IMG/VR virus record: IMGVR_UViG_3300034024_000042
Location: 1 to 45,955 of that record
Length of the DNA stretch: 45,955 nucleotides
DNA from: a virus
Direction: 5' to 3' (one strand)
Shown: positions 17,366-41,017 of the stretch, in pieces
Position numbering within the stretch: position 1 is the first letter of the stretch
Layout: every line of letters starts with the position of its first letter
The notes under the pieces: model-generated
Told to the model about the DNA's origin: nothing
Seen by the model: the letters and a program-made list of their open reading frames with translations, nothing else
Database searches by the model: none
Program-made: the position numbers and the translations under genes

Positions 17366-18878
17366 AGCGAAGCGCGAAGCCCTCGCGCTGCTCGAACGCA
17401 AGGCCGCCGTCGCGGAAGAGCGGGCGCGTGAGGCTGAACGTCGCCGTGTCCTCTCCAGCGCCGAGACCATACGGGGCCGCTGCCGGACGCTCGCTGGGTT
17501 TGTTCGTGAAGCCTGGCACGTGCTGGAGCCGGACGCCGAGTACGTCCACAACTGGCATATCGACGCCATCTGCGACCACCTCGAAGCGGTCACCCGCGGC
17601 GATATCAACCGACTGCTGATCAATGTGCCACCGGGCTCATCGAAGTCGCTGATCGTTTCGGTGATGTGGCCGGCGTGGGAATGGGGCCCGGCCGGCAAGC
17701 GGTCGATGCGCTACCTCACCACCGCGTTCAACGACGGCCCGGTCAAGCGCGACACGCGCAAATGCCGCGATCTCATTGCCTCGGATTGGTATCAAAACCT
17801 CTGGCCGGACGTCGAGCTGACCCGCACCGGCGAGACGTCGTTCGCGAACTCCGCGACCGGCACACGGGAGGGTGTGCCATTCGGTTCGCTTACCTCGCAG
17901 CGCGGGGATCGGCTGATCATCGACGACCCGCACAGCACCGTGACCGCGGAGTCCGAGACCGAGCGCCAGAACACCACGCGCAAGTTTCGCGAGGGCGCGG
18001 TCAACCGGCTCAACGACCAGAAGCGCTCGGCGATCGTGGTGATCATGCAGCGGCTGCACGAGCAGGATATCAGCGGAGTCATTCTCTCGCTTGGCATGAA
18101 CTACGTGCACCTCATGCTGCCGATGGAATTCGACCCGGAGCGCGCTTGCGAGACGCGGATCGGGTTTAAGGATCCGCGCACCGACGAGGGGCAGCTGCTG
18201 GACCCAGAACGCTTTCCGCGCTCAGAGGTGGAAGACCTGCAGCGAGACATGGGCTCGTACGCCTTCTCAGGCCAGTACCAGCAGCGCCCCACGCCTCGCT
18301 CGGGCGGCATGTTCCAGCGCAGCGACTTCGAGGTGGTCGATGCTATCCCCGCTCGGGTTAAGAGGCGCGTGCGAGCTTGGGACTTTGCTGCTTCGAAGGC
18401 GAAGCCCGGCAAGCAGCCGGACTGGACCGCCGGGCTACGCATGGCCCTCGCCGATGGGGTTTTCTACGTCGAGCACGTGGTGCGAGGGCGTTGGAGCGCT
18501 TCCGAGGTCGAGCGCATCCTCAAGAACACTGCGAGCCAAGACGGCACCGAGGTGACGATCCGACAGCCGCAAGACCCGGGCGCTGCCGGTAAGGCCGACG
18601 CCGAGACCAAGGTGCGCCTGCTCGCCGGGTACAACGTCAGGACCCAGGTCGTGACTGGCGACAAGGCGACGCGGGCGCGGCCGGCGTCCGCACAAGCCGA
18701 GGCGGGCAACGTCAAGCTGCTGCGGGGGGACTGGAACGAAGCCTTCCTCGATGAGGTCTGCTCATTCCCCAATGCAATGTTCGACGACCAGGTGGACGCG
18801 TTCGCGGATGCGCTGAACGAGCTCGCACTGGGGTCGAGCTATTCGTACGACCTCGCGGGTGCCCTAGCCGCCGCGTGA
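17340..18878 (+). CDS. terL: large terminase subunit
   Basis: DNA-packaging motor of 512 aa. The ATPase has Walker A NVPPGSSKS (95-103) and Walker B RLIIDDPH (191-198). The RNase H-like nuclease domain starts at RAWDFAAS (D348) and ends with FDDQVDAFADAL near residue 483. It would pump DNA into the prohead and cut at headful or cos. Its TGA stop is the first part of copy 1 of the repeated late element. Confidence 0.95.
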   Translation: MDLSHWPIEAKREALALLERKAAVAEERAREAERRRVLSSAETIRGRCRTLAGFVREAWHVLEPDAEYVHNWHIDAICDHLEAVTRGDINRLLINVPPGSSKSLIVSVMWPAWEWGPAGKRSMRYLTTAFNDGPVKRDTRKCRDLIASDWYQNLWPDVELTRTGETSFANSATGTREGVPFGSLTSQRGDRLIIDDPHSTVTAESETERQNTTRKFREGAVNRLNDQKRSAIVVIMQRLHEQDISGVILSLGMNYVHLMLPMEFDPERACETRIGFKDPRTDEGQLLDPERFPRSEVEDLQRDMGSYAFSGQYQQRPTPRSGGMFQRSDFEVVDAIPARVKRRVRAWDFAASKAKPGKQPDWTAGLRMALADGVFYVEHVVRGRWSASEVERILKNTASQDGTEVTIRQPQDPGAAGKADAETKVRLLAGYNVRTQVVTGDKATRARPASAQAEAGNVKLLRGDWNEAFLDEVCSFPNAMFDDQVDAFADALNELALGSSYSYDLAGALAAA

Positions 18879-18889
18879 CGGCGGTAAGC
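18876..18889 (+). promoter_or_regulatory. repeated late element, copy 1
   Basis: TGACGGCGGTAAGC; its TGA is the terL stop codon. The dinucleotide TA (TATTAC) follows 20 bases later at 18908. The next gene start is 18962, further away than in most copies. Confidence 0.7.
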
Positions 18890-18961
18890 GGAGGATTGGG
18901 CCGTGGGTATTACGCTGCTTCCTGCTTGAAACGCGCTTCTGCTGCAGAGGAGATGACTATC

Positions 18962-19114
18962 ATGCGTACGTTGTTCGGGTTCTTGACCGCAATCGTGACC
19001 CTAATGGTCACTGCCTTCACGGCCCTCGTGCCCAAGTTCGACCCGGGTGGATTGCGCTTCGCAGTCGGCACTCCGCGCTCGATCTTCGAAACGCGGCGCT
19101 GCGGCCTGGCCTGA
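18962..19114 (+). CDS. small membrane protein in a terminator-bounded cassette (50 aa)
   Basis: A 50 aa protein with one hydrophobic helix (LFGFLTAIVTLMVTAFTALV) after a short basic N terminus and a basic C-terminal tail. GAGGAG lies nine bases before ATG 18962; ATG 18953 is an alternative. It stands alone between the element copy 1 and an intrinsic terminator, so it looks like an independent moron-type unit inserted between terL and portal. Function unknown. Confidence 0.5.
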   Translation: MRTLFGFLTAIVTLMVTAFTALVPKFDPGGLRFAVGTPRSIFETRRCGLA

Positions 19115-19139
19115 CGCCAGCCACTATCGAAATTCTGAG

Positions 19140-19173
19140 GGGCCGCCGAGTAATTCTGGCGGCCCTTTTTCTT
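19140..19173 (+). terminator. strong intrinsic terminator
   Basis: An eight-base-pair perfect GC-rich stem, GGGCCGCC (19140-19147) with GGCGGCCC (19158-19165), a ten-base loop and then TTTTTCTTT. Copy 2 of the late element starts at the next base. Confidence 0.9.
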
Positions 19174-19187
19174 TGACGGCGGTAAGC
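19174..19187 (+). promoter_or_regulatory. repeated late element, copy 2
   Basis: TGACGGCGGTAAGC directly behind the terminator. TA follows after 22 bases (CATACC, TA at 19208), and the portal ATG is 12 bases further on without a Shine-Dalgarno. It must supply a new start for portal transcription if the terminator works. Confidence 0.75.
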
Positions 19188-19219
19188 GTCGGCAGCCGCC
19201 GTCGCCATACCCGCTCCCC

Positions 19220-21139
19220 ATGACCGGCCGCATCGGAAACGTCCGCCCGAAACCGGGCTACATGCTCGACGGCGCCGGGGGAGTAGTCCCCGCCACCAAC
19301 GTGGTCCCCCTGCGCGATAATCTAGTCAACGCGATGTCAGGTACCGGCACGGGCCGAGACATCCGCACCGCCGGATTCTACGCAGCGCGCGCGCTTACCC
19401 AGCACGAGATCGCTTCGGCCTATTCGGGCTCGGGCCTGATCCGCAAGATCATCCGCATTCCCGCGCTCGATATGGTGCGCGAGTGGCGCGACTGGTCGGG
19501 CCTAGAGGATGATCAGGCCGCGAAGGTCTACGACGAGGAAAAGCGCCTGCAGGTGCGCCAGAAGGTGCAGCAGGCCGAGATCCTCCGCCGGATGGGCGGA
19601 GGCGCGCTGATCCTCGGGCTGCCCGGCCTACCCCAGATGCCGGTCGCTTCCAGCGGCGTGGGAAAGCTGGCGTTCGTGCACGTCGTCTCGCGTTGGCATC
19701 TCCATTTCGAGAAGCTGCAGGAGGATGCCACGCAGCCAGGGTACGGCGAGCCATTGATGTGGCGCATGAACACCACCGCAGGGCAGCAGAATATCCACCC
19801 AAGCCGGGTGATTCCGTTCCGCGGTGATACCAGTGCCAGCCTGGCAATGGTCGGCTGGAACCAAGCCGACGCATTCTGGGGTGAGAGCGACATCGCCCAG
19901 GTGCTCGAAGCGGTGAAGGATAGCGACACCGCGCGTGCGAGCTTTGCCGCGCTGGTGCACAAGGCACGCCTGCTGCGGATCGGCATCCCGGGGCTCATGG
20001 GCATCATCGCGAGCGGGGGCACCGCGACAATCCAGAACCGCTTGGCCGCAGTCACTCTAGCCGAGAGCGTCCACAACGCCACGATCTACGACGCTGGCAA
20101 CGACGAGGGTAAAGGCGGCGAGAAGATCGACGACGCCACGTACAGCTTCGCTGGCGCCAAGGACATTCTCAATGCCCTGTGGGAATTCGTCTCGGCGATT
20201 TCAGATATCCCGGCGACCCGCCTGCTCGGCCGCGCCCCAGAGGGCATGAACGCAAGCGGCGACAGCCAACAGGCCGACTGGCGCAAGAAGGTCCGCGCGA
20301 TGCAGACCCTCGATCTGATGCCCTGCCTCGATCGGCTCGATGCTCACCTAGTCCCCTCGGCGCTCGGATCGATGCCTGCGAGCGCATCGTACGAGTTCGC
20401 GCCGCTCGATACCGAGACGGCCACCGAGCGGGCCACGCGCTGGAAGACCGAGGCCGAGGCGATGAAGATCGTTTCGGACACCGGGCACGTTCCAGACGAA
20501 GCGATGTCCAAGGGCGTGCAGTCTTGGCTCGTGCATGAAGCCTACCTGCCCGAGCTGGAATCCGCGCTCGACGAGATGAGCGACGAGGACCGCTACGGAC
20601 TCCCCGCCGAGGCTGGCGCAGCGGAAGGAGGTGTTCTCGATCTACCGGAGGGAGGGGAGGTTGTGCCCCTCCGCCGCGCCGCGAACGACGCAAAGCCGCG
20701 CACCCTGTACGTCAGCCGCAAGGTGCAGAACGTCTCCGACCTGAAGTCTTGGGCCCGGAAGCAGGGCCTGCCCGACCTGCAGGACGACCTTCACGTCACC
20801 ATCGCTTTCTCGCGAACCCCCGTCGACTGGATCGAGATGGGCTCCTCATGGGCCGACAACGGGGGCAAGGGTGCAGGTGAGCTGGTGATCACGGCCGGCG
20901 GTCCGCGCGTAGTCGAGCCCCTTGGCGATCGAACTGCCGTGCTGATGTTCGCCTCGTCGGACCTCTCTTGGCGCAATCGCGAGATGCGCGAGGCCGGCGC
21001 GTCCTGGGATTATCCGGACTATCAGCCGCATATCTCGCTCACCGCTGAGCCCGTCGACCTGGCCAAGGTGGAGCCTTATCGCGGCAAGATCGTCCTCGGC
21101 CCGGAGATATTTGAGGAAATCCGCAGCGAGGAGGCGTGA
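19220..21139 (+). CDS. DUF1073 portal protein with C-terminal Acb1-like 2H phosphoesterase
   Basis: A 639 aa protein. Residues 30-470 match the DUF1073 portal family (LIRKIIRIPALDMVREWRDW, NPSR-type region IHPSRVIPF, ATRLLGRAPEGMNASGDSQQ); it would form the dodecameric DNA gate of the head. Residues 493-639 match the Acb1 fold of T4: LYVSRK start, then the two catalytic HxT/S motifs H525-V-T and H604-I-S. Acb1 enzymes cut the cyclic nucleotides of CBASS immunity. The fusion could give the virion an anti-CBASS enzyme or be an unrelated use of the fold. Confidence 0.88.
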   Translation: MTGRIGNVRPKPGYMLDGAGGVVPATNVVPLRDNLVNAMSGTGTGRDIRTAGFYAARALTQHEIASAYSGSGLIRKIIRIPALDMVREWRDWSGLEDDQAAKVYDEEKRLQVRQKVQQAEILRRMGGGALILGLPGLPQMPVASSGVGKLAFVHVVSRWHLHFEKLQEDATQPGYGEPLMWRMNTTAGQQNIHPSRVIPFRGDTSASLAMVGWNQADAFWGESDIAQVLEAVKDSDTARASFAALVHKARLLRIGIPGLMGIIASGGTATIQNRLAAVTLAESVHNATIYDAGNDEGKGGEKIDDATYSFAGAKDILNALWEFVSAISDIPATRLLGRAPEGMNASGDSQQADWRKKVRAMQTLDLMPCLDRLDAHLVPSALGSMPASASYEFAPLDTETATERATRWKTEAEAMKIVSDTGHVPDEAMSKGVQSWLVHEAYLPELESALDEMSDEDRYGLPAEAGAAEGGVLDLPEGGEVVPLRRAANDAKPRTLYVSRKVQNVSDLKSWARKQGLPDLQDDLHVTIAFSRTPVDWIEMGSSWADNGGKGAGELVITAGGPRVVEPLGDRTAVLMFASSDLSWRNREMREAGASWDYPDYQPHISLTAEPVDLAKVEPYRGKIVLGPEIFEEIRSEEA

Positions 21140-21972
21140 TGCGCTTCAACCTCGCCAGCCTCACCCTCCGCGCCAAGCATATCCGCCGCAAGTCGATCAC
21201 CCTGCGGCCGATCGCGCTCCCGTCCACGCTGGCTACCGATCTCTACCAATCGACCTATGCCGCCGTGATCGCCACCTGGGGCGAAGCGCTGCCCGAGATC
21301 ATGGCCAGCTACGAGCGCACCCTCGCCGAGCTGCAGACCGATGCGCCGGCGGATACGGGCGCCCAGCTCTCCGCTGTTGAGCGCCGCATCACCGCGGCAG
21401 CGCTAACGCTGCGCCTACGCCTCGAACGCTGGGCCCGTCGCCTCGAAGCCGCGCACCGGGCCAAGTGGCGCGCCGCGGTGTTGTCCGGAACGGGCGTCGA
21501 CCTCGACACGATGATCGGGCCGAACGATGCGCGCCTGTCGCTGGAGGCGGTGATCGAGCGGAACGTCTCGCTGATCTCGTCGGTCTCGGATCAGGCGAAG
21601 GGGCGCATCTCGGACGCGGTGTTCCGTGGGTTCCGCGAGCGCAAGGCGGCGAACGACGTAGCGAAGGAGCTGCGCGAGGCGGTCGATATGGGCCGAACGC
21701 GCGCGCGCAGGATAGCTGCTGATCAGACCGTGAAGCTGGCCCGCGAGCTAGACCAGGAACGCCGACGCCAAGCCGGAATCGACACCTGGGCATGGGTTCA
21801 CTCGGGTAAGGCTCACCCACGCGAGGAGCACCTGGCGCGCGACGGCGAGATCTACTCGGACGACGATCCGCCGCTGGATATGCCCGGCGAACTGCCGTTC
21901 TGCGGCTGCACGAGCAAGGCGGTGCTCGACATCGACGCGATGATTGAGAAAGAATTGGCTGCTGCAGCCTGA
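21139..21972 (+). CDS. SPP1 gp7-like head morphogenesis protein
   Basis: A 277 aa minor head protein. The C-terminal third carries the family signature: ARRIAADQTVKLARELDQER, WAWVHSGKAHPREEHLARDG and the closing GELPFCGCTSKAVLD with paired cysteines. Such proteins accompany the portal in the prohead. ATG 21139 follows a GTG and overlaps the portal stop. Confidence 0.88.
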   Translation: MRFNLASLTLRAKHIRRKSITLRPIALPSTLATDLYQSTYAAVIATWGEALPEIMASYERTLAELQTDAPADTGAQLSAVERRITAAALTLRLRLERWARRLEAAHRAKWRAAVLSGTGVDLDTMIGPNDARLSLEAVIERNVSLISSVSDQAKGRISDAVFRGFRERKAANDVAKELREAVDMGRTRARRIAADQTVKLARELDQERRRQAGIDTWAWVHSGKAHPREEHLARDGEIYSDDDPPLDMPGELPFCGCTSKAVLDIDAMIEKELAAAA

Positions 21973-21988
21973 TTCTGTTAAAGAAATC

Positions 21989-22022
21989 GGGCCGAAACGG
22001 GGGGTCAAACCCGCTCCGGCCC
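21989..22022. other. imperfect GC hairpin between head gene and accessory cassette
   Basis: GGGCCG (21989-21994) can pair with CGGCCC (22017-22022), with an inner GGGT/ACCC stem. No T-run follows on the plus strand; on the minus strand a TTTCTTT lies beyond. It may limit read-through into the accessory genes, or have no role. Confidence 0.3.
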
Positions 22023-22049
22023 TGACCGCAACGAACATGGAGCGTTCGC

Positions 22050-22340
22050 ATGGCTGCTCAAACCGATAATCTCAACACGGCACCCGAACAAGCAGCGGGT
22101 CGATACGCTGAATGCCAGCAGCTTACAGAGTATTTGTTTTATGGGCTGGAAAAGAACTGGGGCGTTCCTGCTTTAATCCTCAATAACGATCGCGCCATCC
22201 CGGTTCACGGAGTTGATCTTGAGAATGAAGCTAATGAATGGTCATTGGGAATGATTGCGATAAGGGATGTGCCTGCGGGAGAAGCTAACTATAATTGGGT
22301 GATCCGGGTGTCGGATATCTCTGCGGTAAACTGGAAATAA
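22050..22340 (+). CDS. accessory (moron-type) protein, AT-richer than neighbours (96 aa)
   Basis: A 96 aa acidic protein (ECQQLTEYLFYGLEKNWGVP, NEANEWSLGMIAIRDVPAGE). Codon use is visibly more AT-rich (aataacgat, aatgaagctaatgaatgg) than the head genes on either side, a sign of separate origin. GGAG lies upstream of the ATG. It pairs with the next gene four bases downstream. Family not recognised. Confidence 0.7.
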   Translation: MAAQTDNLNTAPEQAAGRYAECQQLTEYLFYGLEKNWGVPALILNNDRAIPVHGVDLENEANEWSLGMIAIRDVPAGEANYNWVIRVSDISAVNWK

Positions 22341-22344
22341 TTGG

Positions 22345-23055
22345 ATGACTCCGCTGGCGCAGCACATGATGACGCGGGCGCTGCGGGCTGGCGATTGTGG
22401 CGTCATCCAAATGTTTCGCGATGTGCAGATGTTCGAAGTGACTGGATGCATCCACCTCACCTACGGTCCTGGAAGCATTTGGCAGGAAGCGCGTGAATGG
22501 TGCGAGGAGCGACTTTTCTTACCCGCACCTAAAACGTGGATTGAACTTATACCACGCCCAGGACATCCGCGGTACGCGGTCCTCCTTGACGAGGAAACCG
22601 GATGTCGGATGGTGACCGCATTCAGTCTCTCGGGCGGAAATGACGTCGCTATAGCTGGCCCGGATCCGTGGATACCGCCGGGCGCAAAAGAAATCGCGGA
22701 GACGCCGAGCCAACAGGCAGGTCGGGTTTATAGTCAGGTGCTGCCGCTGCTAAACGCGCCCCACCTTACAACTTCTGAGTCTCATTCGGCGCACACGGGG
22801 TTGCAGAGAAAGCTAACCCGCGCCGGATACTCGGGCCCTCACTTCGATGAAGGCTGGACAGAAGTGCGACTTCAGGTCGGAGTGCGGCGTGCAATCTCCG
22901 ACAGTCAGACCGGAGAGATTTGCGCAAAGAAGAGGCTGCACTTCTGCCGCTCTCACCTGCGGATCCGCAACGGACTTCCCGGAATAGTTCGCGCGCACTG
23001 GCGCGGTGATGCGACGATGGGCACGGTGGCAAAGACTTACGAGGTCGCTGCCTAA
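22345..23055 (+). CDS. accessory (moron-type) protein with HWRGD segment (236 aa)
   Basis: A 236 aa protein of mixed composition with lower GC than the structural genes. The C terminus has RLHFCRSHLRIRNG followed by GIVRAHWRGDATMG, a histidine/cysteine pattern I have seen in uncharacterised phage and bacterial proteins. It follows the 22050 gene after four bases, so the two may form a functional pair. Inserted between the head morphogenesis and protease genes; late transcription appears to restart just after it at element copy 3. Confidence 0.7.
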   Translation: MTPLAQHMMTRALRAGDCGVIQMFRDVQMFEVTGCIHLTYGPGSIWQEAREWCEERLFLPAPKTWIELIPRPGHPRYAVLLDEETGCRMVTAFSLSGGNDVAIAGPDPWIPPGAKEIAETPSQQAGRVYSQVLPLLNAPHLTTSESHSAHTGLQRKLTRAGYSGPHFDEGWTEVRLQVGVRRAISDSQTGEICAKKRLHFCRSHLRIRNGLPGIVRAHWRGDATMGTVAKTYEVAA

Positions 23056-23061
23056 CCACTT

Positions 23062-23075
23062 TGACGGCGGTAACG
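23062..23075 (+). promoter_or_regulatory. repeated late element, copy 3
   Basis: TGACGGCGGTAACG, six bases after the accessory gene stop. TA (CATATC) is 20 bases downstream at 23094 and the DUF2213 ATG is 13 bases beyond that. Confidence 0.75.
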
Positions 23076-23106
23076 GCTGGCCCGTGGGAGCCATATCCCG
23101 CCGCCC

Positions 23107-24228
23107 ATGGTCCAACTCTGCGACACCATGACCCTAGACCGCTCCGCCCGCATCTGCGCGGACGGCGCGCTGGTCGCCGAGGTGTTCGCCGCCCGTACCG
23201 GGGTGCAGGATTACCTCGGCGCCGAGGTCGATCCGGAAGGTTCGCGCTTCGCCGCCGACAAGGTGGTCAAGGTCTACCGGCCCGAGAGCGAAGTTTTCAA
23301 AGCCGATAGCTTGGCGACGTTCGCTGCGGCGCCGGTGACGATCAATCACCCCGCCGATCCGGTCACCGCCGACAACTGGCGGGGCCTGGGCGTTGGCGAG
23401 ATTAATGGCGACGTGGTGCGCGACGGCCACCGGGTCCGCGTCCCGATCATTGTCCGCGATGCTGCTGCGGTGAAGGCCGCGACCACGACGCACAAGCAGC
23501 TCAGCATGGGCTACGCGACGGACCTCAAGTTCCCTGAGGACGGCAAGCATCCTGACGGCACCGTCTGCGATGCCTACCAGACCAATCTCAAGATCAACCA
23601 CATTGCGCTGGTTCCTGCTGCCCGGGGTGGGCCGGAGCTGCGTGTAGTCGATGAACGCCCCGCCCCATCGGAGAAGACCGCGATGAAGATCAAGATCGGC
23701 GACGCCGAAGTCGATGCGACGAACGGTGAGGCCGTTCGGATCGCTGTCGATGCCCTCAACAGCAAGTACGCCGGCTTGGAGCAGCGCGCGACCGACGCGG
23801 AAACGCAGGTAGCCACGCTGACCACCGAGAAGGCGACCGCCGACGCGAAGGTGACCACGTTGGAGACCCAGCTCGCCGACGCGAAGCTCTCGCCGCAGCA
23901 GTTGCGCGATGCCGCCAAGGCCTATGCGCTCACGGTCGACAAGGCCAAGGCGCTCGGCGTGACCGTCTCCGACGAGATGGACGAGCCGGCCATCATGAAG
24001 GCGGTCGTTGACGCCAAGATCGGCGATGCCGCGAAGGAATGGAGCGACGCCCAGATTGCGGCCTCGTTCGCCACTCTGACGGCCGGCGCCAAGCTTGCCG
24101 ACAGCGTCACCAACATCACTCCCGGCGTCGTCACCGATGCGGAGAACGAGTTTGCCGCTGCCCAGCGCAAGCTTAGCGACCAGCGCCGCAATGCCTGGAA
24201 GACCCCCGCCTCGGCGGCGGCGCAGTAA
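23107..24228 (+). CDS. DUF2213 prohead protease-scaffold protein
   Basis: A 373 aa protein. Residues 1-190 match DUF2213 (FAAAPVTINHPADPVTADNW, QLSMGYATDLKFPEDGKHP, INHIALVPAARGG), the proposed prohead protease. Residues 190-373 are a helical scaffold with coiled coil (QVATLTTEKATADAKVTTLE). An in-frame ATG at 23683 after GGAGAAG could give a separate scaffold-only product, as in lambda C/Nu3. It starts 13 bases after the TA of late element copy 3. Confidence 0.85.
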   Translation: MVQLCDTMTLDRSARICADGALVAEVFAARTGVQDYLGAEVDPEGSRFAADKVVKVYRPESEVFKADSLATFAAAPVTINHPADPVTADNWRGLGVGEINGDVVRDGHRVRVPIIVRDAAAVKAATTTHKQLSMGYATDLKFPEDGKHPDGTVCDAYQTNLKINHIALVPAARGGPELRVVDERPAPSEKTAMKIKIGDAEVDATNGEAVRIAVDALNSKYAGLEQRATDAETQVATLTTEKATADAKVTTLETQLADAKLSPQQLRDAAKAYALTVDKAKALGVTVSDEMDEPAIMKAVVDAKIGDAAKEWSDAQIAASFATLTAGAKLADSVTNITPGVVTDAENEFAAAQRKLSDQRRNAWKTPASAAAQ

Positions 24229-24240
24229 GGAGCGCACGAA

Positions 24241-24702
24241 ATGGGCATCACCATCCAGAGCAGCTACGCCGAAGACTACGCCAAAGGGTTCCCGGGCCTG
24301 GTCGCAAACGGCGAAACCAGCAATCGCATCAGCCGTACCGTCGAGGATGCCGCTGGCATCGCGTTTGGTAAGGCGGTGTTCCGCGGCGCGGGCGACCACG
24401 GGGTCACCGCAACGCCGGCAGCGAACACCTTCATGGGTGTCACGATCGCCGATGTGGGCGTCCTTCCGGCGATTATCGGCGGCGACGTCGACGAGTACCC
24501 GCAGTACGCGACGGCGGGCATCCTCAACGAGGGGTGCATCTACGTCACGGTCGGCGAAGACGTGACCGATGGGGCGGCGGCTTACGTCACCTCCGGCGGC
24601 GCGTTCGTCGACACCTCGACCAGCAACACCGCCATCCCGGCGGTCTTCGATGAAACCGTGGCGAGCGGCGGCATCTGCCGTCTGCGCGTGCGTCGTTCGT
24701 AA
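24241..24702 (+). CDS. capsid decoration/cement-like protein
   Basis: A 153 aa beta-rich protein (GDHGVTATPAANTFMGVTIA, GGDVDEYPQYATAGILNEGC, YVTVGEDVTDGAAAYVTSGG) of the type found between protease and major capsid genes; it resembles phage structural cement proteins. It would stabilise the mature shell. The ATG has AAGGAG upstream. Confidence 0.75.
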   Translation: MGITIQSSYAEDYAKGFPGLVANGETSNRISRTVEDAAGIAFGKAVFRGAGDHGVTATPAANTFMGVTIADVGVLPAIIGGDVDEYPQYATAGILNEGCIYVTVGEDVTDGAAAYVTSGGAFVDTSTSNTAIPAVFDETVASGGICRLRVRRS

Positions 24703-24715
24703 GGGGGAAATGCAA

Positions 24716-25645: not shown

Positions 25646-25648
25646 GCC

Positions 25649-25936
25649 ATGAAGACGCTCACGAACTACACCGCAGGCGCCCGGGGCATCAACTTGAAGA
25701 GCGGCGGCACACGCTGGCTTGAGCCTGGCGAGACCGCAGAGATCGATCCGAAAGAGATCGTCGGCCCGCTTCCCGACCTCGGCAAGAAAGCCGACCAGGC
25801 TGCGGCAGATACCGGCGAAGTCGATGCTCTGCGCTCCCAGGTCGATAGCCTGACCACGCAGCTCGCGGACTCTGCCACGGCCAACACCGCCCTCCTCCAA
25901 GAGGTCGAGGCACTGAAGGCGGCCGCGAAGAAGTAG
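25649..25936 (+). CDS. small structural-region protein with coiled coil (95 aa)
   Basis: A 95 aa protein. The N-terminal half is beta-like (GARGINLKSGGTRWLEPGET) and the C-terminal half is a coiled coil (VDALRSQVDSLTTQLADS). It is placed directly after the major capsid gene. It may be a minor head or head-tail protein; family not certain. Confidence 0.65.
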   Translation: MKTLTNYTAGARGINLKSGGTRWLEPGETAEIDPKEIVGPLPDLGKKADQAAADTGEVDALRSQVDSLTTQLADSATANTALLQEVEALKAAAKK

Positions 25937-25960
25937 CCCCGGCATCAGCAGGGGGAAGCG

Positions 25961-25997
25961 GGGCCGCTCTGCTCTCGGGCGGGCGGCCCTAGTTTTT
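25961..25997 (+). terminator. intrinsic terminator after the head genes
   Basis: GGGCCGC (25961-25967) pairs with GCGGCCC (25983-25989), followed by TAGTTTTT. The 15-base loop makes it weaker than the 19140 terminator. It probably lowers expression of the genes after the major capsid. Confidence 0.6.
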
Positions 25998-26011
25998 AGG
26001 GAAGATCGACG

Positions 26012-26452: not shown

Positions 26453-26474
26453 TTTAACCCCGGGAGCCTAAATC

Positions 26475-30026: not shown

Positions 30027-30029
30027 CCG

Positions 30030-30778: not shown

Positions 30779-30785
30779 CCGCTGC

Positions 30786-31055: not shown

Positions 31056-31088
31056 CACTTCCCGCGAGTTCCACGCGCGGAGAAGCGA

Positions 31089-31535: not shown

Positions 31536-31538
31536 GTC

Positions 31539-32140: not shown

Positions 32141-32174
32141 TGCTCGCCGTTGGCCGCTGCTATGCGACGTCGCC

Positions 32175-32417: not shown

Positions 32418-32453
32418 TCCATACGCTCAGCGCGCCCATCATCGGAGCGCGCT

Positions 32454-34814
32454 TTGCCCCAAGTCGATCCTGTAATTCTGCAGCTGAAGGCGGACGTCGC
32501 TGACTATCAGCGCGACCTCACACGGGCGCAGAGGATCACGGATGACAAGCTCGACCGCATTGGACGCGCGGGCACTGCGACCGGCGTGGCGCTGCGCAAA
32601 GGGTTCGACCTTGCCAAGGGTGCCGCCATTGGATTCGCTGCAAGCGTGGGCGTGGAAGCGATAGTCGGCGCGATAAAGACCGGCCTCGACTACGCCGCCT
32701 CGCTGGGGGAAGTCGCACAGCAGCTCGGCGTCACTACCGCAGCCTTGCAGGAATATCGCTACGCGGGCTCGCAAGCCGGCCTCTCTACTGAGGAGGTTGA
32801 TCAAGCGCTGAGCCAACTCACACGGCGCATCGGTGAAGCCGCCGAGGGCACGAAGGCTCAAGCTGAAGCGTTCAAGAAGCTCGGTATCTCAGTCAAGGAC
32901 GCCAACGGTCAGGTCCTCGATGCCGGGCGGGCCATTCCGCTGATTGCCGATGCCTTGCAGCAGATAGAAAGCCCGGCGGAGCGAGCCGCGTTGCTGATGG
33001 ATCTGTTCGGGCGCGCCGGTCAAAAGCTAGAGCCGTTGCTCGCCGGCGGGGCTGGCGCCGTGAACAACCTGCGCAACGCAGCTCATGAGCTAGGCATTGT
33101 GCTCAGCGACGAGCAAATTCAGCGCGCCGACGAGACGGCGGACAAGCTCGACTCCTTGAAACAGGTCCTCTCTGCCAAGATCGCCGGAGCAGTCGCCGAC
33201 AACACTGGGGCTGTCTTGGCGCTGGCCGATGCACTTGAACGCCTGGTCAGTTCTGCCGCGAAGGCGATCAACGCTTGGAAGGAATACCGCCTCGAAGTCG
33301 GTGTTCGCCAGCAGCAGTCAATCATCGACGGGTTTGCCACGAGTCAGGGCGCAAAGGCCGCCGCACGGCTGACCCAAGGAGCGATGCGCACCGAAATTAA
33401 CCGCATGAACAGGCCGGGTGTGGCGGTGAAGCCCGGGGAAGTGCGGACCCTCGGCGGCAAGGTCTACAACTACAAGGTCGCGCCCAACGCCACACCGACG
33501 GCGAAACTGTCCGGAGCCGATGGCTTTGGCCTGTCCTCTCGCTTCGGCGAAGGTGTGTCGGGACCTGCCGGTCGAGGCCCGGGCATTGCGGCATTGCTCG
33601 GCACGAACCCTGTTGCCGCAGTGAAGGCGGCTAACGCGCTGACCACTGAAATGCAGCGGCTCGCGGCAGATATCGCCCTGGCCCAAGCCGAACTGTCAGA
33701 CGACCTCTCAGCGCAGGCCGCGGCACGCAAACAACAGATTGATGCTGGACTCCGGGCCACGCTGGACCGGCTGAAGTCGGACGAGGACCTCACAAAAGAG
33801 CAGCGCGCTGAGTTGAGCGCGTTGGAAACGCAGCGAGCGTCTCTGGAACGGCAGGCTATTGACCAGCAGCTCTCAGAGGACCTCACGCGAGATGCCCTCG
33901 ATCAGCAGGAAAAGAGGCGTGACGCGCTCGAAGCGAACGCCCGTCTAGAGCTTGATGCCCTTGCGGCTGAGAGCGACCTGGCAGACACCCGCACCGAACG
34001 CCTCGCGATCGAGCGTCGGATCCTTGACTTGAGGCAAGAGGCTGAACGGGCGGCACTGGACGAGGCTATTGCTGCTGGTGAGATTGCGGACGCGGCAGGC
34101 GCGCGCGCCGCGCTGGCCCGCCGACAGGCGGCTGAGGGCAGCGGCCTGGAGCGTGACTTCGAAGGTCCGCTTGCTCGCTACGCGCGTGATGCCAAAGATT
34201 CGCGCGACCGCGTCGAAGAAGCCGCGGCCCGCCGCATAGCCGACCTCAACGACACGATCGCGGACACCATGGCCAAGGCGCTCGGCGTCAAGGACCCGTT
34301 CCTGCGCGACCTGCTCAAAATCTTCCTCGATCAGAACGTGTTCGGCCCGCTTGCTGAGAGCCTGTCGAGCCGTGGGGGCGGAGGTGGCGGGCTCCTTGGG
34401 GGCTTGTTCAGCGCCGTCGGCAGCCTCTTCGGTGTCGGTGGCGGTATCGGCGGTGGGCTGAGCAAGGACGGCGGCCTGACTGGTGGCTTCCTGCGCACTC
34501 GGGCTTCGGGCGGCTACGCGGGCGCGGGCCAGCTCTTGCGCATCAATGAGGGCGCTTCCCCGGGTCGCGTCGAGGGCTTCATCCCCCAGGGCTCGGGCGA
34601 GATCATCCCGCTCGGGCGGATGAACGCCATGGGGCGCGGTAGCGGCGGTGCCGGCGTCGTTCGGGTCATCATCGAAGAAGGTCCGAACTTCATGTCTACA
34701 ATCCGAGCCGAGGCGACGGGGGTGGCCATTGAGGTCACGAAGGCCACCGCCCCCCAGATCGTAAAGGGCGCGGTAGCCGAAACCTCCCGCCAGCTGGGTC
34801 GCCCCCGCATGTGA
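32454..34814 (+). CDS. tape measure protein
   Basis: A 786 aa tail-length protein. The N terminus (ILQLKADVADYQRDLTRAQR) and the hydrophobic stretch around residues 55-80 are typical. Residues 400-610 are long coiled coil (EQRAELSALETQRASLERQA), and a glycine-rich segment (RGGGGGGLLGGLFSAVGSLF) comes before the C terminus. It would set tail length and may pass into the host membrane during DNA entry. TTG start, after GGAG at some distance. The TGA stop is the first part of late element copy 7. Confidence 0.88.
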   Translation: MPQVDPVILQLKADVADYQRDLTRAQRITDDKLDRIGRAGTATGVALRKGFDLAKGAAIGFAASVGVEAIVGAIKTGLDYAASLGEVAQQLGVTTAALQEYRYAGSQAGLSTEEVDQALSQLTRRIGEAAEGTKAQAEAFKKLGISVKDANGQVLDAGRAIPLIADALQQIESPAERAALLMDLFGRAGQKLEPLLAGGAGAVNNLRNAAHELGIVLSDEQIQRADETADKLDSLKQVLSAKIAGAVADNTGAVLALADALERLVSSAAKAINAWKEYRLEVGVRQQQSIIDGFATSQGAKAAARLTQGAMRTEINRMNRPGVAVKPGEVRTLGGKVYNYKVAPNATPTAKLSGADGFGLSSRFGEGVSGPAGRGPGIAALLGTNPVAAVKAANALTTEMQRLAADIALAQAELSDDLSAQAAARKQQIDAGLRATLDRLKSDEDLTKEQRAELSALETQRASLERQAIDQQLSEDLTRDALDQQEKRRDALEANARLELDALAAESDLADTRTERLAIERRILDLRQEAERAALDEAIAAGEIADAAGARAALARRQAAEGSGLERDFEGPLARYARDAKDSRDRVEEAAARRIADLNDTIADTMAKALGVKDPFLRDLLKIFLDQNVFGPLAESLSSRGGGGGGLLGGLFSAVGSLFGVGGGIGGGLSKDGGLTGGFLRTRASGGYAGAGQLLRINEGASPGRVEGFIPQGSGEIIPLGRMNAMGRGSGGAGVVRVIIEEGPNFMSTIRAEATGVAIEVTKATAPQIVKGAVAETSRQLGRPRM

Positions 34815-34825
34815 CGGCGGTAAGC
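34812..34825 (+). promoter_or_regulatory. repeated late element, copy 7
   Basis: TGACGGCGGTAAGC, its TGA being the tape measure stop. This is the one copy with GA instead of TA at the 20-base position (34844). ATG 34857 lies 13 bases after it. Confidence 0.6.
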
Positions 34826-34856
34826 ATGGCGGGCGGTTCAAGCGATGACCGCCGCC

Positions 34857-35546
34857 ATGGCCGAGATCACCGTTCCTGATCCTGATGAGCTGCTGCTCTC
34901 ATGGCCGAAGCTTCGCACTCCCACTCAGGTCAACCGGTCGAGCTGGACCGGCAGACGAAAGGTCATTGGCTTGCCCGGCACCGAGCTTTGGACCGGCGCC
35001 TTCGCGATCGGGGATATCGCGACCGAGGAAGAGGAGCAGCCGTGGCGGGCTTTCCTGTTCGGCCTGGGCGGCCCCGCGAACTGGTTCCGCTGGCCCCTGC
35101 CTTGCAACGAACACGCCGGAGCAAAGCCCACCGTCGATACCGGGGCGGGCAATGCCTATTCGCTTCCGCTGACCGGCATGCAGGTCAGCACGCTGATCGC
35201 GAAGGCCGGTCAGTACATGACCATCCCCCTGCCTTCTGGCCACAAGCGCGCGGTCTGCCTGATGGCCGATCTGCTCACTGACAGCTCCGGCGATGCGACC
35301 GCGCAGTTTCGGCCCGCCCTGAACGAAGTGCCTGTCGCCGGCGTCACCGTCGAGACGAAGTACCCGTACATCCCGATGTCGCCGGTTGAAGATGAGTTGG
35401 GCTTGTCGGGCGCCGAGGGGGTCAGTGGCGCCGAGTTCGAGGTCGAAGAGGCTTTCGGTGCGGCGCTTGTCGGCGACACGCCTGACTACACGATTCCGAC
35501 CTTCGACGACGACAGCGGCGATTTCACTTTCGACATGGACAACTGA
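34857..35546 (+). CDS. distal-tail-like phage tail protein (229 aa)
   Basis: A 229 aa tail protein (TPTQVNRSSWTGRRKVIGLP, EEEQPWRAFLFGLGGPANWF, TLIAKAGQYMTIPLPSGHKR). It lies directly after the tape measure, where distal tail (Dit) proteins belong. Residues 160-229 are acidic. ATG 34857 matches the spacing seen after other late element copies; ATG 34845 four codons earlier is the alternative. Confidence 0.72.
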   Translation: MAEITVPDPDELLLSWPKLRTPTQVNRSSWTGRRKVIGLPGTELWTGAFAIGDIATEEEEQPWRAFLFGLGGPANWFRWPLPCNEHAGAKPTVDTGAGNAYSLPLTGMQVSTLIAKAGQYMTIPLPSGHKRAVCLMADLLTDSSGDATAQFRPALNEVPVAGVTVETKYPYIPMSPVEDELGLSGAEGVSGAEFEVEEAFGAALVGDTPDYTIPTFDDDSGDFTFDMDN

Positions 35547-35547
35547 G

Positions 35548-37422
35548 ATGGCCCAGCAAGCAATCGATTTGGGCGCAGTAGCCAATGACGGCACCGGGGA
35601 TTCCCCGCGCGATGCCGGCACCAAGATCAACGACAACTTTACCGAGCTTTACGGTCAGAAGGCCCCGCTGGCCTCGCCTGCCTTCACTGGAAATCCGACC
35701 GCGCCAACCCAGACCGCGGGTAACAACAGTACGCGCCTAGCTACCACGGCGTTCGTCGCGGCTGCGCTGGCTGGACTGGGCGGCGGGGCCAGTTCTGTTG
35801 CAGCGACCCGCACTGCGCTGGCCGCAATCGCCTCGCCATCTGGTTCGATGTATCTCGCCGAGAGCGGCCGCGAAGGCTGGTTCACCTGGTCAAGTTCCAA
35901 CAACTCGGCCAACGTCACAGCCGATGCGGCACAAGGCATCTACGTGCCGCCCGCAAGTGCGACATCGGGCGCAAGCGGCGCGTGGGTGCGCAAGTTCCCC
36001 GCCGGGATAGCGTTTGCGGAGTGGTTCGGCGTCGATCCCACCGTGACTGCGAACCACGACGTTGCGATCAATGCGGCGTTGGCGCTCGCAGCGGTGAGCG
36101 TCCTGATGCTGCCTTCGGGCACGATCACGACCGGCGCGGTTGTCGTGGTGCCCTCCTACAAGTCGCTGGTCGGTGTCGCGCGCGACAGCACGATACTCAA
36201 GGGCCGCACCGGCGTTTTCACGGGCCTCGCGACGTTCCCCACCAATGCGATCGTCTGCACTGCCGACGGCGCAATCAACCCGCGCGTGCAGCGCCTTACC
36301 GTCGATGTCAGCAAGCTAGGCCTAGGTGCCAGTCAGAAGTGCAACGGCGTCGTCATGCGCTCGGCGCAGGGCTTCGTGGTTGAAGATTGCGCGGCTCTCA
36401 ACGTCACCAACTACGCTTTTTGGGCGATGGAGGAAGCGGGCGGATCGATGCGCCCGAACGGCGTGTTCCGCCGCGTCAAAGCGACCAACTTCAATGTTGG
36501 CTTCGAATGCAGCCATGCCGATGGCGTGCTGTGGGATGGAATGGAGTTTTCGTCGGGTGACGGGGACATCGCCTGCGAGGCAGTTTATCACCCGCTCGCG
36601 GGTAGCCGCAATGTCACTTATAGGAACGGCAAGGGCACCGTAGCTGTGGGCGGCATTATCGTGGTCGTCAGCGACTCCGCCGGCTACGCCATGACCAATA
36701 TCCGCTTCATCAACTGTGATGGAACGGTTGAAGGCGACTACGATGCGTTCAGCATCAACAAGACCCTCGGCGGTAGCATAGATGTTGTGTTCGAGGACTG
36801 CGAGCTCGTCAGTTTGGTGGGCGCAGGCGGAACAGTCACCGCAGGAACCACGCTGCGCACCCGTGGCGGGTCGATCCAAGGCAAGCTGATCGGCGTTTCC
36901 GTCTACGGCACGATGGAAATGGACGACAGCCCGACCATTAACGTGCCTGCGGGCGTCGGCTTGACGGGCGTAGCGATCAACAATGCTGGCGGCACATTCC
37001 GAATGCGGAGCGGAACGATCAACCTGACCGGGCCCGCCGTGAACTATGTTGCCAGTACTGTTGCGAACAGTATCACCGACATCTCACGGCATGTGAATGT
37101 GCCGGGTGTTACCAACGGCATCCGTATTTCTAACACATCTGGCTCGCAAGACCTGTTCACCGAGGATCAGGATCGCATCTGCCTACTGTCGGCAGGTTAC
37201 GCCCAATCGGCCTTGCTGCATCCCGACAGCACGATCTGCATGCCGGTCGGCACCCAAATCCGGATTGTCGCCGGCGACACCTACACCAAGACAATTGATC
37301 CCCAGGGGGCCACCACCATCAACGGGAGCACCTCCTCACTGACCATGACCGGTCTCGGCAAGCAGGCGCTGCTGGTGAAGACTGCCGCCAGTGCGTGGGT
37401 CTCGGCGGGAGACGCGGCGTGA
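35548..37422 (+). CDS. tailspike/tail fibre with beta-helix domain
   Basis: A 624 aa protein. Residues 1-75 are a tail-fibre attachment segment (GTKINDNFTELYGQKAPLAS, ATTAFVAAALAGLGGG). Residues 165-540 look like a right-handed beta-helix as in phage depolymerases (PSYKSLVGVARDSTILKGRT, VVEDCAALNVTNYAFWAMEE, VTYRNGKGTVAVGGIIVVVS). It probably binds or cuts surface polysaccharide and sets host range. It begins one base after the upstream stop. Confidence 0.8.
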   Translation: MAQQAIDLGAVANDGTGDSPRDAGTKINDNFTELYGQKAPLASPAFTGNPTAPTQTAGNNSTRLATTAFVAAALAGLGGGASSVAATRTALAAIASPSGSMYLAESGREGWFTWSSSNNSANVTADAAQGIYVPPASATSGASGAWVRKFPAGIAFAEWFGVDPTVTANHDVAINAALALAAVSVLMLPSGTITTGAVVVVPSYKSLVGVARDSTILKGRTGVFTGLATFPTNAIVCTADGAINPRVQRLTVDVSKLGLGASQKCNGVVMRSAQGFVVEDCAALNVTNYAFWAMEEAGGSMRPNGVFRRVKATNFNVGFECSHADGVLWDGMEFSSGDGDIACEAVYHPLAGSRNVTYRNGKGTVAVGGIIVVVSDSAGYAMTNIRFINCDGTVEGDYDAFSINKTLGGSIDVVFEDCELVSLVGAGGTVTAGTTLRTRGGSIQGKLIGVSVYGTMEMDDSPTINVPAGVGLTGVAINNAGGTFRMRSGTINLTGPAVNYVASTVANSITDISRHVNVPGVTNGIRISNTSGSQDLFTEDQDRICLLSAGYAQSALLHPDSTICMPVGTQIRIVAGDTYTKTIDPQGATTINGSTSSLTMTGLGKQALLVKTAASAWVSAGDAA

Positions 37423-37426
37423 CCCG

Positions 37427-37440
37427 CGACGGCGGTAACG
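37427..37440 (+). promoter_or_regulatory. repeated late element, copy 8
   Basis: CGACGGCGGTAACG (first base C). TA (TAGTCC) follows after 20 bases at 37459, and the next ATG (37471) 12 bases later. Confidence 0.7.
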
Positions 37441-37470
37441 TTCGACGGTAGCCATCCTTAGTCCGGCGGG

Positions 37471-38133
37471 ATGCCGCTTCCTGACGCAACGCACGCAGCA
37501 GCGCTCGATGCGGAAGTCATCAAGCCGGTCTGGTTCGTCTATCTCGACTTTCTGGACGATGAGGTTCGCGCGAACACATCGGGCGCCAACGTCACCCCGA
37601 CGGGGACCGGTGACGCCGACCTCGACGGCCACCAGTTTGACGGCATTACCGCGGCTTTCGTGGACGTCTCTTCGGTCAAGGTGGGCGAAGGGGGCTCGGA
37701 CAGCGTGACCGCCCGCCTGTCGGGGATTCGCGGCCTCGACGATGACATGCTCGACCAGATCAACGATCCGGCGAACTGGCGCGGCCGGGACGCTCGGCTG
37801 TGGCGGATCGTTCGTAATGCATCGAACGTGCAGCAAGGCGGCTTCCACGCCTATTACACCGGCAAGATGACCGGCCTGCGCCATGCGGGCACAGCCGATG
37901 AGCAAACGATCGCCGTCACGATCGAGAGCTATCTCGCGGTGTTCTCGGAAGCCTCGAACCGCAGCTATCTCGACCAGTCTCGGTACGATTCAGGCGACGA
38001 GAGCGCGCGGGCGACGATCGCCATAGCGAACGGCAATTATACGGGTGCGCCGACCGGGAGTGGTGGTGGCGGTGGCGGCGCCAACTTCGGCGGCGGCGGA
38101 CGCACCCCAGACATCCGGAACCTTGAGCTGTGA
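37471..38133 (+). CDS. baseplate hub-region protein, DUF2163-like (220 aa)
   Basis: A 220 aa protein (VIKPVWFVYLDFLDDEVRAN, FVDVSSVKVGEGGSDSVTAR, DDDMLDQINDPANWRGRDAR, LAVFSEASNRSYLDQSRYDS) with a glycine-rich C terminus. Its place before an NlpC/P60-like peptidase and the tip protein matches the GTA-like tail cassette. Start 12 bases after the TA of late element copy 8. Confidence 0.7.
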   Translation: MPLPDATHAAALDAEVIKPVWFVYLDFLDDEVRANTSGANVTPTGTGDADLDGHQFDGITAAFVDVSSVKVGEGGSDSVTARLSGIRGLDDDMLDQINDPANWRGRDARLWRIVRNASNVQQGGFHAYYTGKMTGLRHAGTADEQTIAVTIESYLAVFSEASNRSYLDQSRYDSGDESARATIAIANGNYTGAPTGSGGGGGGANFGGGGRTPDIRNLEL

Positions 38134-38531: not shown

Positions 38532-38532
38532 G

Positions 38533-40374
38533 ATGGGAAAGATCGTCAAGTCGGTCCTGAAATTCGCTGCGGTCGCGGTGAACTTCATCCCGGGCATCGG
38601 GCAGATCGCTTCCCTCGCGATCACCGCTGCGCTCACCATCGGCGCGTCGCTGATCAAGACCGGTAAGACCAAATCCCCCGCAGCGAGCCCGGAGGCGTTC
38701 AACCGCTTACGCGCCAACATTGATCCCCGCGCGCCTCGCAAGATCGTGGTCGGCGATACCGCTCTGGCAACCGATATCCGCGACGAGGAATTCACCGACA
38801 GCCAGGGATACTTCCACCGCTTCATCGTGTGCGCGAGCCACAAGGTTCAGTCGATCGACGAAATCTGGTTCGACGATAAGCTGGCGTGGAGCCTGTCAGG
38901 CGGCGTCGCGAGCGACTTCTCAGGCTATCTCACGGTCGCGACACGTACCGAGGGCAGCGCGGCCAACGCCATCAACATCTCGTCGCGCATGGGTACGAGC
39001 CGCCGATATACCGGCCTCGCGTACGTCCACCTCAAGTATAAGCTCTCCGGCAACGACAAGAAAACCGACAGCCCCTTCGCCCAGTCCATCACCACGCGCA
39101 TTACGATCCGCGGGAAAGCTGCCTTCCTGCCCGACCCGCGCGACCCGGCGCAGGACATGGCCGATCAATCGACGTGGGTGTGGGACGCGGACGCCTGCCG
39201 CAACCCGGCGCTGGCGCTGCTGTTCTACCTGCTGGGGTGGCAGATCAATGGAGAGCTAGCCGTCGGAAAGGGCATCCCGCCCGACCGGATCGACCTTGAG
39301 AGCTTCGAAATCGCCGCCAACATTTGCGACGAGGACGTATCGACCGGCAGCGGCACCGAGCCGCGTTATCGCTGCGATGGCATCTGGTCGGAAGGCGACA
39401 GCCCCACGACCGTGATCGACATGCTCAAGGCGACAATGAACGCCGACCTCGACGATGTCGGCGGTAAGCTGCGCCTGACGATCTTCCACGACGACCTCGC
39501 CACGCCGGAAGCTGACTTTACCGACGACGACATCATCGACGGCTTCGAGTGGCAGCCGGTCCCCGATCTCGACCAGACTTTCAACGTGGTGCGGGGCTCG
39601 TACACGGATCCCAGCAACACCAGCCTTTACCAGCTCGTCGACTACCCCGAGCAGCGCTCCGACAGCGACGACGGCATTGACCGCATCTTCACGCTCGACC
39701 TGCCGATGGTGCAGTCGCCCTACCAGGCGCAGCGCCTGGCATACCTGCGCAAGCAGCGGCAGAAGTATGGCGGCGTGTTCAGCGCCGAGTATCAGGCGAC
39801 GGCATGGAAGGTCCAAAAGAACAGCGTCATCCGCCAGACCTTCACGCAGACCGGTTTCGTGCAGAAGCTCTTCCGGGTGGCCGAGATGGAAATCCGGCAG
39901 GACGGCGTCGTTCCTCTGATGCTTCGCGAGGAGAACGCGGCAATCTACGCCCACCCAACCTTAGGCGCGCCGCTCGCGCCAATCGCGACGACCCCTTTCG
40001 ACCCCACCCTCGACCCGATCATACAGGCCTTCAACAGCGCCGCGGCCACGCTGATCAGTATGTCGATCGCATTCCCTCTCACCAGCGACGATGATCAGGT
40101 CAATGTCGCGGCCTTCACTGGCGTCACCAATGACGGGCGGACGATCGCCTTTCCGGCTGGCGTGGTGAGCGGTCTCCTGGCGAGCACGTTCTACGGCGTA
40201 TTCTACGATGGGAGTGCGTACTCTGCGGTCGCGACGCCCGCGACAGCTCAGTTCGCGAACCCCGCGCTAGTTTTCCTTGGATGGCAGGCCACCTCCAGCG
40301 GCGGCACCTTCCCCGCTTACACTCCTCCGCCGAATGGCTACGGCGGATACGGCGGCCAGTACATGGAGCCTTGA
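38533..40374 (+). CDS. tail tip/host specificity protein (J-like)
   Basis: A 613 aa protein. A hydrophobic N-terminal region (AAVAVNFIPGIGQIASLAIT) is followed by a domain like phage tail tip J proteins (ASPEAFNRLRANIDPRAPRK IVVGD, GDSPTTVIDMLKATMNADLD). The end is Gly/Tyr-rich (PPPNGYGGYGGQYMEP). It would assemble on the hub and contact the host. Its TGA stop belongs to late element copy 9. Confidence 0.82.
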   Translation: MGKIVKSVLKFAAVAVNFIPGIGQIASLAITAALTIGASLIKTGKTKSPAASPEAFNRLRANIDPRAPRKIVVGDTALATDIRDEEFTDSQGYFHRFIVCASHKVQSIDEIWFDDKLAWSLSGGVASDFSGYLTVATRTEGSAANAINISSRMGTSRRYTGLAYVHLKYKLSGNDKKTDSPFAQSITTRITIRGKAAFLPDPRDPAQDMADQSTWVWDADACRNPALALLFYLLGWQINGELAVGKGIPPDRIDLESFEIAANICDEDVSTGSGTEPRYRCDGIWSEGDSPTTVIDMLKATMNADLDDVGGKLRLTIFHDDLATPEADFTDDDIIDGFEWQPVPDLDQTFNVVRGSYTDPSNTSLYQLVDYPEQRSDSDDGIDRIFTLDLPMVQSPYQAQRLAYLRKQRQKYGGVFSAEYQATAWKVQKNSVIRQTFTQTGFVQKLFRVAEMEIRQDGVVPLMLREENAAIYAHPTLGAPLAPIATTPFDPTLDPIIQAFNSAAATLISMSIAFPLTSDDDQVNVAAFTGVTNDGRTIAFPAGVVSGLLASTFYGVFYDGSAYSAVATPATAQFANPALVFLGWQATSSGGTFPAYTPPPNGYGGYGGQYMEP

Positions 40375-40385
40375 CGGCGGTAAGA
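40372..40385 (+). promoter_or_regulatory. repeated late element, copy 9
   Basis: TGACGGCGGTAAGA, its TGA being the tail tip stop. TA (TAGCGA) follows after 20 bases at 40404 and ATG 40415 lies 11 bases further on. A degenerate second GGCGGCGGTAGCG overlaps the TA region. Confidence 0.7.
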
Positions 40386-40414
40386 TTGGCGCGCGGGCGG
40401 CGGTAGCGAACCGC

Positions 40415-41017
40415 ATGAGCACCGAACTGATCATCGGCCTCGTGCTGGTCGCGGGCATCGCTTTGCTGGTGGCCTACCGCAAGGGGGTGTTCCGCGAGAA
40501 GGAGGGCAAAGGCTGGTCGGAGGGGCCAATCGGCAAGGACGGCAACTACAGCAAGAACGTCAAGGTGAGCGGCACCGGCTTTGCATTTCCTGTGGGCGTC
40601 GATGGCATCCACTACTTCACCAAGGCGCGCGGCCCGATCATCGGCAACTCGATCACGCTCGAATGCTACATCGAAGCCGACCCCACTGTGCGCTTCGTTG
40701 GGGTTGAGGACGGCCGCGAAGGCACGATGAGCGTTTACATCGCTGGCCCGGATTGGCGTGCACCTCATGGGCGCTGGTATTGCCCGCTCGAATACCGGAC
40801 GCCGGTCACCGCTGGTAAACACACCATCACCGTGCCGCTCGATGGCCTGTGGATGGGCGCCACTGACGACAACAGTTCTACGGCCCCGGCGCAGTTCCGC
40901 GATTGCCTCGCCAAGCCCGGACGCATCGGTTGGGTGTTCGGCGGCAACGCGGGCCGCGGGCACGGTGTATTCGCAACGGGGCCTGCTGAGTTCATCGCTG
41001 GCAGGGTCGACGCATGA
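40415..41017 (+). CDS. membrane-anchored phage protein (200 aa)
   Basis: A 200 aa protein with an N-terminal membrane segment (MSTELIIGLVLVAGIALLVA) and a beta-rich exterior domain (YSKNVKVSGTGFAFPVGVDG, ITLECYIEADPTVRFVGVE, DCLAKPGRIGWVFGG). It lies between tail tip and lysis genes. It may be a virion or cell-surface protein; function unknown. Confidence 0.65.
   Translation: MSTELIIGLVLVAGIALLVAYRKGVFREKEGKGWSEGPIGKDGNYSKNVKVSGTGFAFPVGVDGIHYFTKARGPIIGNSITLECYIEADPTVRFVGVEDGREGTMSVYIAGPDWRAPHGRWYCPLEYRTPVTAGKHTITVPLDGLWMGATDDNSSTAPAQFRDCLAKPGRIGWVFGGNAGRGHGVFATGPAEFIAGRVDA

Follow-up and report, generated by a model that had tools for sequence, protein, structure and literature searches.

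The question raised by this locus is what function is served by a short sequence that recurs, on one strand only, at gene boundaries across the late region of a phage. The window, defined here as the whole stretch of DNA analysed, is an entire IMG/VR viral record of 45,955 bases. Its gene order runs from an integrase, a CI/S24-type repressor, and a CII-like region to the terS, terL, portal, protease, capsid, and tail genes. The first-pass annotation of this DNA reported nine exact copies of YGACGGCGGTAA (box A), and all nine were recovered at the positions listed below, nine on the plus strand and none on the minus strand, where about 0 would be expected. The same annotation had tied the box to a downstream TA, and this spacing was reproduced. 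Counted past the box, the TA is at +20 in six of the nine copies, at +21 at 28576, and at +22 at 19174, while 34812 has GA at +20. The probability of six of nine TA dinucleotides falling at one given offset by chance is 4e-9, or approximately 1.5e-7 when corrected for 40 offsets. Only the box and the T and A, numbered here as -12/-11, carry positional information. The spacer shows no conservation. With up to one mismatch to YGACGGCGGTAA permitted, the window contains 11 sites, compared with 0.56 expected in shuffles (shuffle maximum 3). The copies and a candidate regulator gene are as follows.

15138-15512, plus strand: candidate late regulator gene, 124 amino acids, GGAGG upstream, last early gene ahead of the terminase genes
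15176-15222, plus strand: probable tenth copy, TGGCGGCGGTAA, one mismatch, TA at +20, ATG at +32
18876-18909, plus strand: box A copy 1, TA at +20, its TGA doubling as the terL stop
19174-19222, plus strand: box A copy 2, TA at +22, portal ATG at +34, leaderless type
23062-23109, plus strand: box A copy 3, TA at +20, head maturation protease ATG at +33, leaderless type
28576-28624, plus strand: box A copy 4, TA at +21, head-tail connector-like gene ATG at +34, leaderless type
31021-31091, plus strand: box A copy 5, TA at +20, leader with Shine-Dalgarno GGAG, major tail protein ATG at +56
32390-32456, plus strand: box A copy 6, TA at +20, leader with Shine-Dalgarno GGAG, tape measure TTG at +52
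34812-34859, plus strand: box A copy 7, GA for TA at +20 with the -11 A retained, Dit ATG (34857) at +33
37427-37473, plus strand: box A copy 8, TA at +20, tail (hub) gene ATG at +32, leaderless type
40372-40417, plus strand: box A copy 9, TA at +20, ATG at +31, leaderless type, first gene before the lysis region

Six of the nine copies have a start codon 31-34 bases past the box and no Shine-Dalgarno (SD) sequence. The remaining three (small membrane gene, major tail gene, and tape measure) have an SD and a start 52-65 bases past the box. Copy 1 serves the small membrane-protein ORF, which is leadered and begins at 18953 with an SD. Copy 2 is immediately preceded by a strong terminator hairpin (19137-19168). 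The Dit start behind copy 7 is best placed at ATG 34857 (MAEITVPD) rather than at 34845, as judged from the distance to the box and from relatives, in which Dit begins MAEI at an equal distance. The TGA of copy 9 doubles as the stop of a tail fibre J-like gene. Of 185 sites in the window and its relatives, 89 have a box TGA that also ends an upstream open frame of 60 codons or more, a very compact join.

The near copy at 15176 sits within the candidate regulator gene, upstream of the ParB-methylase, terS, and terL genes, and is probably a tenth member that precedes the terS/terL operon. A relative (L010) has an exact copy (site 8068) at the matching place ahead of terS. A second near copy, at 39456, was rejected because it has no TA, and is probably due to chance. 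No consensus TTGACA/TATAAT sigma-70 promoter was found at any copy within 18000-37999. The two promoter-like matches in that interval both fall away from the copies, and their count equals the shuffle mean.

Relatives were picked by portal homology alone, with the box ignored. The resulting set comprises 29 viral loci and 7 from sequenced genomes, the latter including Allopontixanthobacter, Novosphingobium, Stakelama, and Sphingorhabdus. Searching GenBank phages at the nucleotide level with the terminase-capsid region returned no match. The exact box is present, on the plus strand only, in viral loci L001-L015 except L009; the L008 copy lies near the start of its locus. Copy number per locus ranges from 1 to 5 in homology-selected relatives, with every copy on the late strand, and full records have 2-8 copies each with one stray exception. 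Reversed-pattern controls are near zero. The TA is at exactly +20 in 47 of 74 distinct homology-only sites, where 2% would be expected (binomial 8e-62). Among these 74 sites, the A at -11 is present in 91% and a T ahead of the box in 95%, and no conserved T was found at -7 of the -10 element. Both the spacing of the 12-mer and TA and their position are conserved in related phages.

The distance to the start codon falls into two groups. Of 186 sites, 112 have an ATG between +31 and +34, and only 5% of these 112 carry an SD. A second mode is centred on +48 to +56; starts at +44 to +60 account for 55 of the 186 sites, 91% of which have an SD. The difference in SD presence between near-ATG and far-start sites is pronounced (Fisher 7e-30). 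The SD is missing exactly where no leader would exist, which places the start of transcription at approximately +32, and a start at that position would give most modules leaderless mRNAs. In the absence of RNA 5' end data, leaderless mRNA for most modules is inferred from this geometry together with the absent SD in 95% of the 112 sites. The major tail gene is leadered behind its box in relatives as in the window. A strict hairpin search for terminators ahead of the box was positive in 1 of 192 cases. This search is uninformative, since it demanded a perfect stem and for that reason overlooked the clear hairpin at 19137.

Box type varies between phages (A, A', B, C, D, and E), while the distance to given genes is constant. 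Each phage has one main type. Box A' (GACGGCGGCAA) is found in a Stakelama phage, boxes B (CCAGCCGTAATC) and C (CCGTCCGTAGC) in relatives without an exact box A, and box D (AGCGGCGGGAA) in GenBank phage OM868076 (L194). All four occupy the same place before the portal and protease genes. Box E (GACGACGGTAA) is found in L207, has its TA at +20 in five of five copies, and was located only through the regulator-based search described below.

Two local variants were observed upstream of portal genes. The Stakelama phage has tandem boxes with a 14-base step (L164:2326-2340), and Sphingorhabdus L190 has a near copy of the box inside the spacer. OM868076 and PP438430 are named for Synechococcus, and their portal is 62% identical to that of this sphingomonad-type phage. 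OM868076, the one of the two in which it was checked, shares this phage's late promoter architecture, using box D. The assignment of Synechococcus as their host may be wrong.

The first-pass annotation had read the repeats as promoters, with the box at -44 to -33 and the TA as the -12/-11 pair. No RNA data are available, and the support for this reading is that the spacing is kept in independent relatives and that the SD dichotomy puts the transcription start approximately 12 bases past the T of the TA, where the reading predicted it. Transcription from the boxes is inferred, and that they are late promoters of a phage-specific family is held with high confidence. In the proposed mechanism, the asymmetric box of 11-12 bases (about -44 to -33) would be bound by a phage-made activator in place of a -35 element. 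Host RNA polymerase with the housekeeping sigma factor, a sigma-70-type enzyme whose use is likewise inferred, would melt a minimal -10 element whose conservation is limited to T(-12) and A(-11). Initiation would follow about 12 bases past the T of the TA. For most units the start point would be the A of the start codon or an adjacent base, giving a leaderless mRNA. Some genes, such as the major tail protein gene, would have a leader of approximately 20 bases carrying an SD. Each structural module would have its own switch, and a single regulator would activate all of them at once. The strongest candidate for that role is the small helix-turn-helix (HTH) protein encoded at 15138-15512, which would be expressed from the end of the early operon. 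New relative to the earlier promoter reading are the leaderless starts, the further box types, and the candidate regulator. What sequence comparison itself establishes is the element with its spacing, strand, and gene context, the split between leaderless and leadered types, the confinement to phages, and the joint occurrence with the HTH gene. Taken as a whole, the explanation (late promoters, a phage activator, the HTH protein as reader, and mostly leaderless output) is considered likely.

Three explanations without promoters were weighed. Because the strand is fixed, the sites lie at gene boundaries, and about one box in two provides the TGA stop codon of the gene before it, the repeats could act at the RNA level (in antitermination, processing, or translation control) within the transcript of the upstream or downstream gene. 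A fixed distance to an isolated TA is promoter geometry, however, as is the loss of the SD exactly where an ATG stands at +31 to +34, and the strong terminator ahead of the portal copy fits separate units rather than one read-through transcript; an RNA-level role is very improbable. Even less credit is given to a recombination linker for module exchange without a role in transcription, which the first-pass annotation had offered as its alternative. The copies do stand at module boundaries, and modules do differ between relatives. A linker would have no need of a TA fixed at exactly +20 or of a start codon between +31 and +34, and for that reason this alternative is not supported. Moreover, its sequence would not be expected to change in concert at all copies of a phage, and copies precede the same conserved genes even without any exchange. 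Chance repetition, or a codon-usage artefact of GC-rich DNA, has in its favour only that the 12-mer is GC-rich and the genome is 64% GC. It is refuted by the 11 sites against 0.56 expected, by the empty reverse strand, and by the independent relatives, and can be set aside with near certainty.

If the copies are promoters, the protein that reads them remains to be identified. In 200 Sphingomonadaceae-group genomes, the bipartite pattern occurs at the level of the reversed control with the exception of one prophage with four copies. A further single match, in G214, is also within a prophage. In four genomes with prophage relatives, nearly all copies are in the prophage or on multi-copy contigs. 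The absence of the element from host genomes outside prophages indicates that its reader is probably phage-encoded. On the same genomic distribution, a host regulator with its own regulon of the box sequence appears unlikely.

Among 19 phage records compared, the HTH gene at 15138-15512 is the only widely shared gene that is neither structural nor a terminase gene. It is located directly or nearly before terS and is retained where terminases are swapped among phages. An AF2 model predicts a three-helix HTH domain at residues ~43-103 (pLDDT ~90 in the domain helices). The window protein has no match in Pfam, PHROG, NCBIfam, or PDB, the late activator families Mor/C and Ogr of Pfam and PHROG included. 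Foldseek searches against PDB with the whole protein and with the domain alone gave nothing significant, and those against viral models gave only weak HTH matches, the second best of which is named transcription-regulator-like. A relative (G030) encodes a second protein (L179:12762-13484) made of three consecutive HTH repeats of the window HTH family, one of which has a weak match to phrog_836, a late activator (E 0.024).

The HTH gene and the box occur together. The gene is present in 25 of 27 multi-copy records (26 found with the pattern, plus G271) and in 1 of 33 single-hit controls, which hold the pattern by chance (Fisher 2e-13). The gene is missing only from two multi-copy records, which at 11 and 17 kb are the shortest fragments. 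These counts reflect shared lineage and are not independent events. A profile search of the 200 host-group genomes with the HTH family, blind to the box, gave eight matches. All four with an intact late cluster are boxed (G033 with box A, G038 with box C, L205 with six box A copies, and L207 with five box E copies). The other four (L203, L204, L206, and L208), adjoined by no late cluster or only a remnant, have no box. Box types cluster on the HTH tree, with 5 changes compared with 12.4 when shuffled. The portal tree fits equally well, with 4 changes, so shared ancestry could explain the association with the HTH gene. The correlation did not discriminate between the HTH and portal lineages as the explanation of box type. 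Box A is identical across phages with divergent HTH recognition regions (TNWRVIRRW, GARTDLIRKW, and GKRAAQRY), and the near-identical HTH proteins of L188 and L194 accompany boxes A and D, respectively. No simple recognition code is therefore visible.

The main competitor accepts late promoters but assigns them another reader, either a diverged phage protein or a host regulator or sigma factor used only by these phages. The HTH gene would then simply be inherited along with the lineage, for instance as a gene for a terminase-associated protein. The variable recognition helices among box A phages are compatible with this, as is the equal fit of box type to the portal tree; the gene also lies beside or close to terS, and small terminase subunits are among the weak PHROG matches. 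The HTH gene nevertheless stays while terminase genes are exchanged, and no second non-structural gene is widely shared among the records compared. The element is missing from hosts outside prophages, and phages of related hosts differ in box type. Another reader, with the HTH gene as a passenger, is a possibility that cannot be dismissed but is considered doubtful. The HTH protein as reader is an inference without binding data, with shared lineage as the main confounder, and taken alone this identification is favoured with moderate confidence.

Two other genes of the window have unusual features. The portal protein (19220-21139) contains a C-terminal anti-CBASS Acb1 domain (PF23474, 7e-33, residues 494-636) and, by this domain match, is a fusion of a structural and a counter-defence protein. 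The ParB/N6-N4 methyltransferase (15522-16877) shows a perfect tandem duplication, TDPDDVPEPPADPISQLGDVWILGKHRIVCGSS, of about 33 residues, which is either real or an assembly artefact.

Control of phage late genes in alphaproteobacteria is little known outside gene transfer agents. If the present reading is right, a single short pattern is enough to predict the late transcription units and the true start codons of the whole clade, and its predictions are made to the single base. It would also provide a natural set of many leaderless promoters for the study of leaderless translation, and at least six diverged box types, each repeated within a genome, for tracking co-change of regulator and site. 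A broader conclusion is put forward only with slight preference. These phages, known from host genomes and metagenomes, may form a large undescribed clade of temperate alphaproteobacterial phages with dispersed, mostly leaderless virion-gene promoters. The readers would be very small HTH activators of a new family, and the target box would drift in step at all promoters of a phage (types A, A', B, C, D, and E) while spacing and gene context stay fixed. If true, the clade would be a natural series of co-evolved regulator-operator sets.

The exact box sequence was found in the literature only in papers on unrelated subjects. Searches on sphingomonad phage late promoters and on leaderless phage transcripts turned up no account of the element or the HTH protein, in a literature that left out most subscription journals. 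In jumbo phages phiKZ and AR9, late promoters are likewise short, repeated, and numerous, and a phage multisubunit RNA polymerase reads them; the AR9 consensus is bipartite (AACA-N6-TA/G) and its leaders are 26-491 bases long (PMC5312081). In contrast, none of the window proteins examined was identified as a phage polymerase. The start-associated sequences (SAS) of mycobacteriophages sit close to the start codon, whereas the box described here is 31-34 bases before SD-less starts and is tied to a TA. In cluster K mycobacteriophages, SAS/ESAS are short start-associated repeats, about half with inverted repeats upstream, and resemble the present element in being mostly in one orientation, at gene starts, and conserved between phages at the same genes (PMC3203893).

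The gene transfer agents of alphaproteobacteria are controlled by GafA (RcGTA) and by GafY/GafZ (CcGTA), and share with the proposed system a phage-like structural cluster, a dedicated DNA-binding activator, and host RNA polymerase (PMC9638019, PMC11150451). The Caulobacter agent has one main-cluster promoter with a GafY element at -123 to -113 plus IHF and a start codon at +251, and GafA is a larger DUF6456 protein (PMC9638019, PMC11150451). This control differs from that of the phage in promoter number, element position, and protein; no DUF6456/GafA-type Pfam match was found in ten early-region proteins scanned or in the HTH family.

The lambda PRM promoter is activated by CI and produces a leaderless cI message. 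It resembles the proposed element in having an activator adjoining the -35 region and an mRNA starting at AUG. It is unlike it in being a repressor-maintenance promoter with dimeric operators, no repeated late element, and an unrelated protein. In Mu (C), P2/P4 (Ogr/Delta), and similar phages, a small phage-made DNA-binding protein acting with host RNA polymerase switches on several late units together, from promoters that lack a good -35. The sequences differ from those described here, and the Ogr and Mor/C families are undetected in this phage. The proposed mode is nonetheless like that of Mu C and P2 Ogr, with one activator, several late units, and a poor -35, here extended to as many as ten promoters, one per module, with products that would be mostly leaderless.
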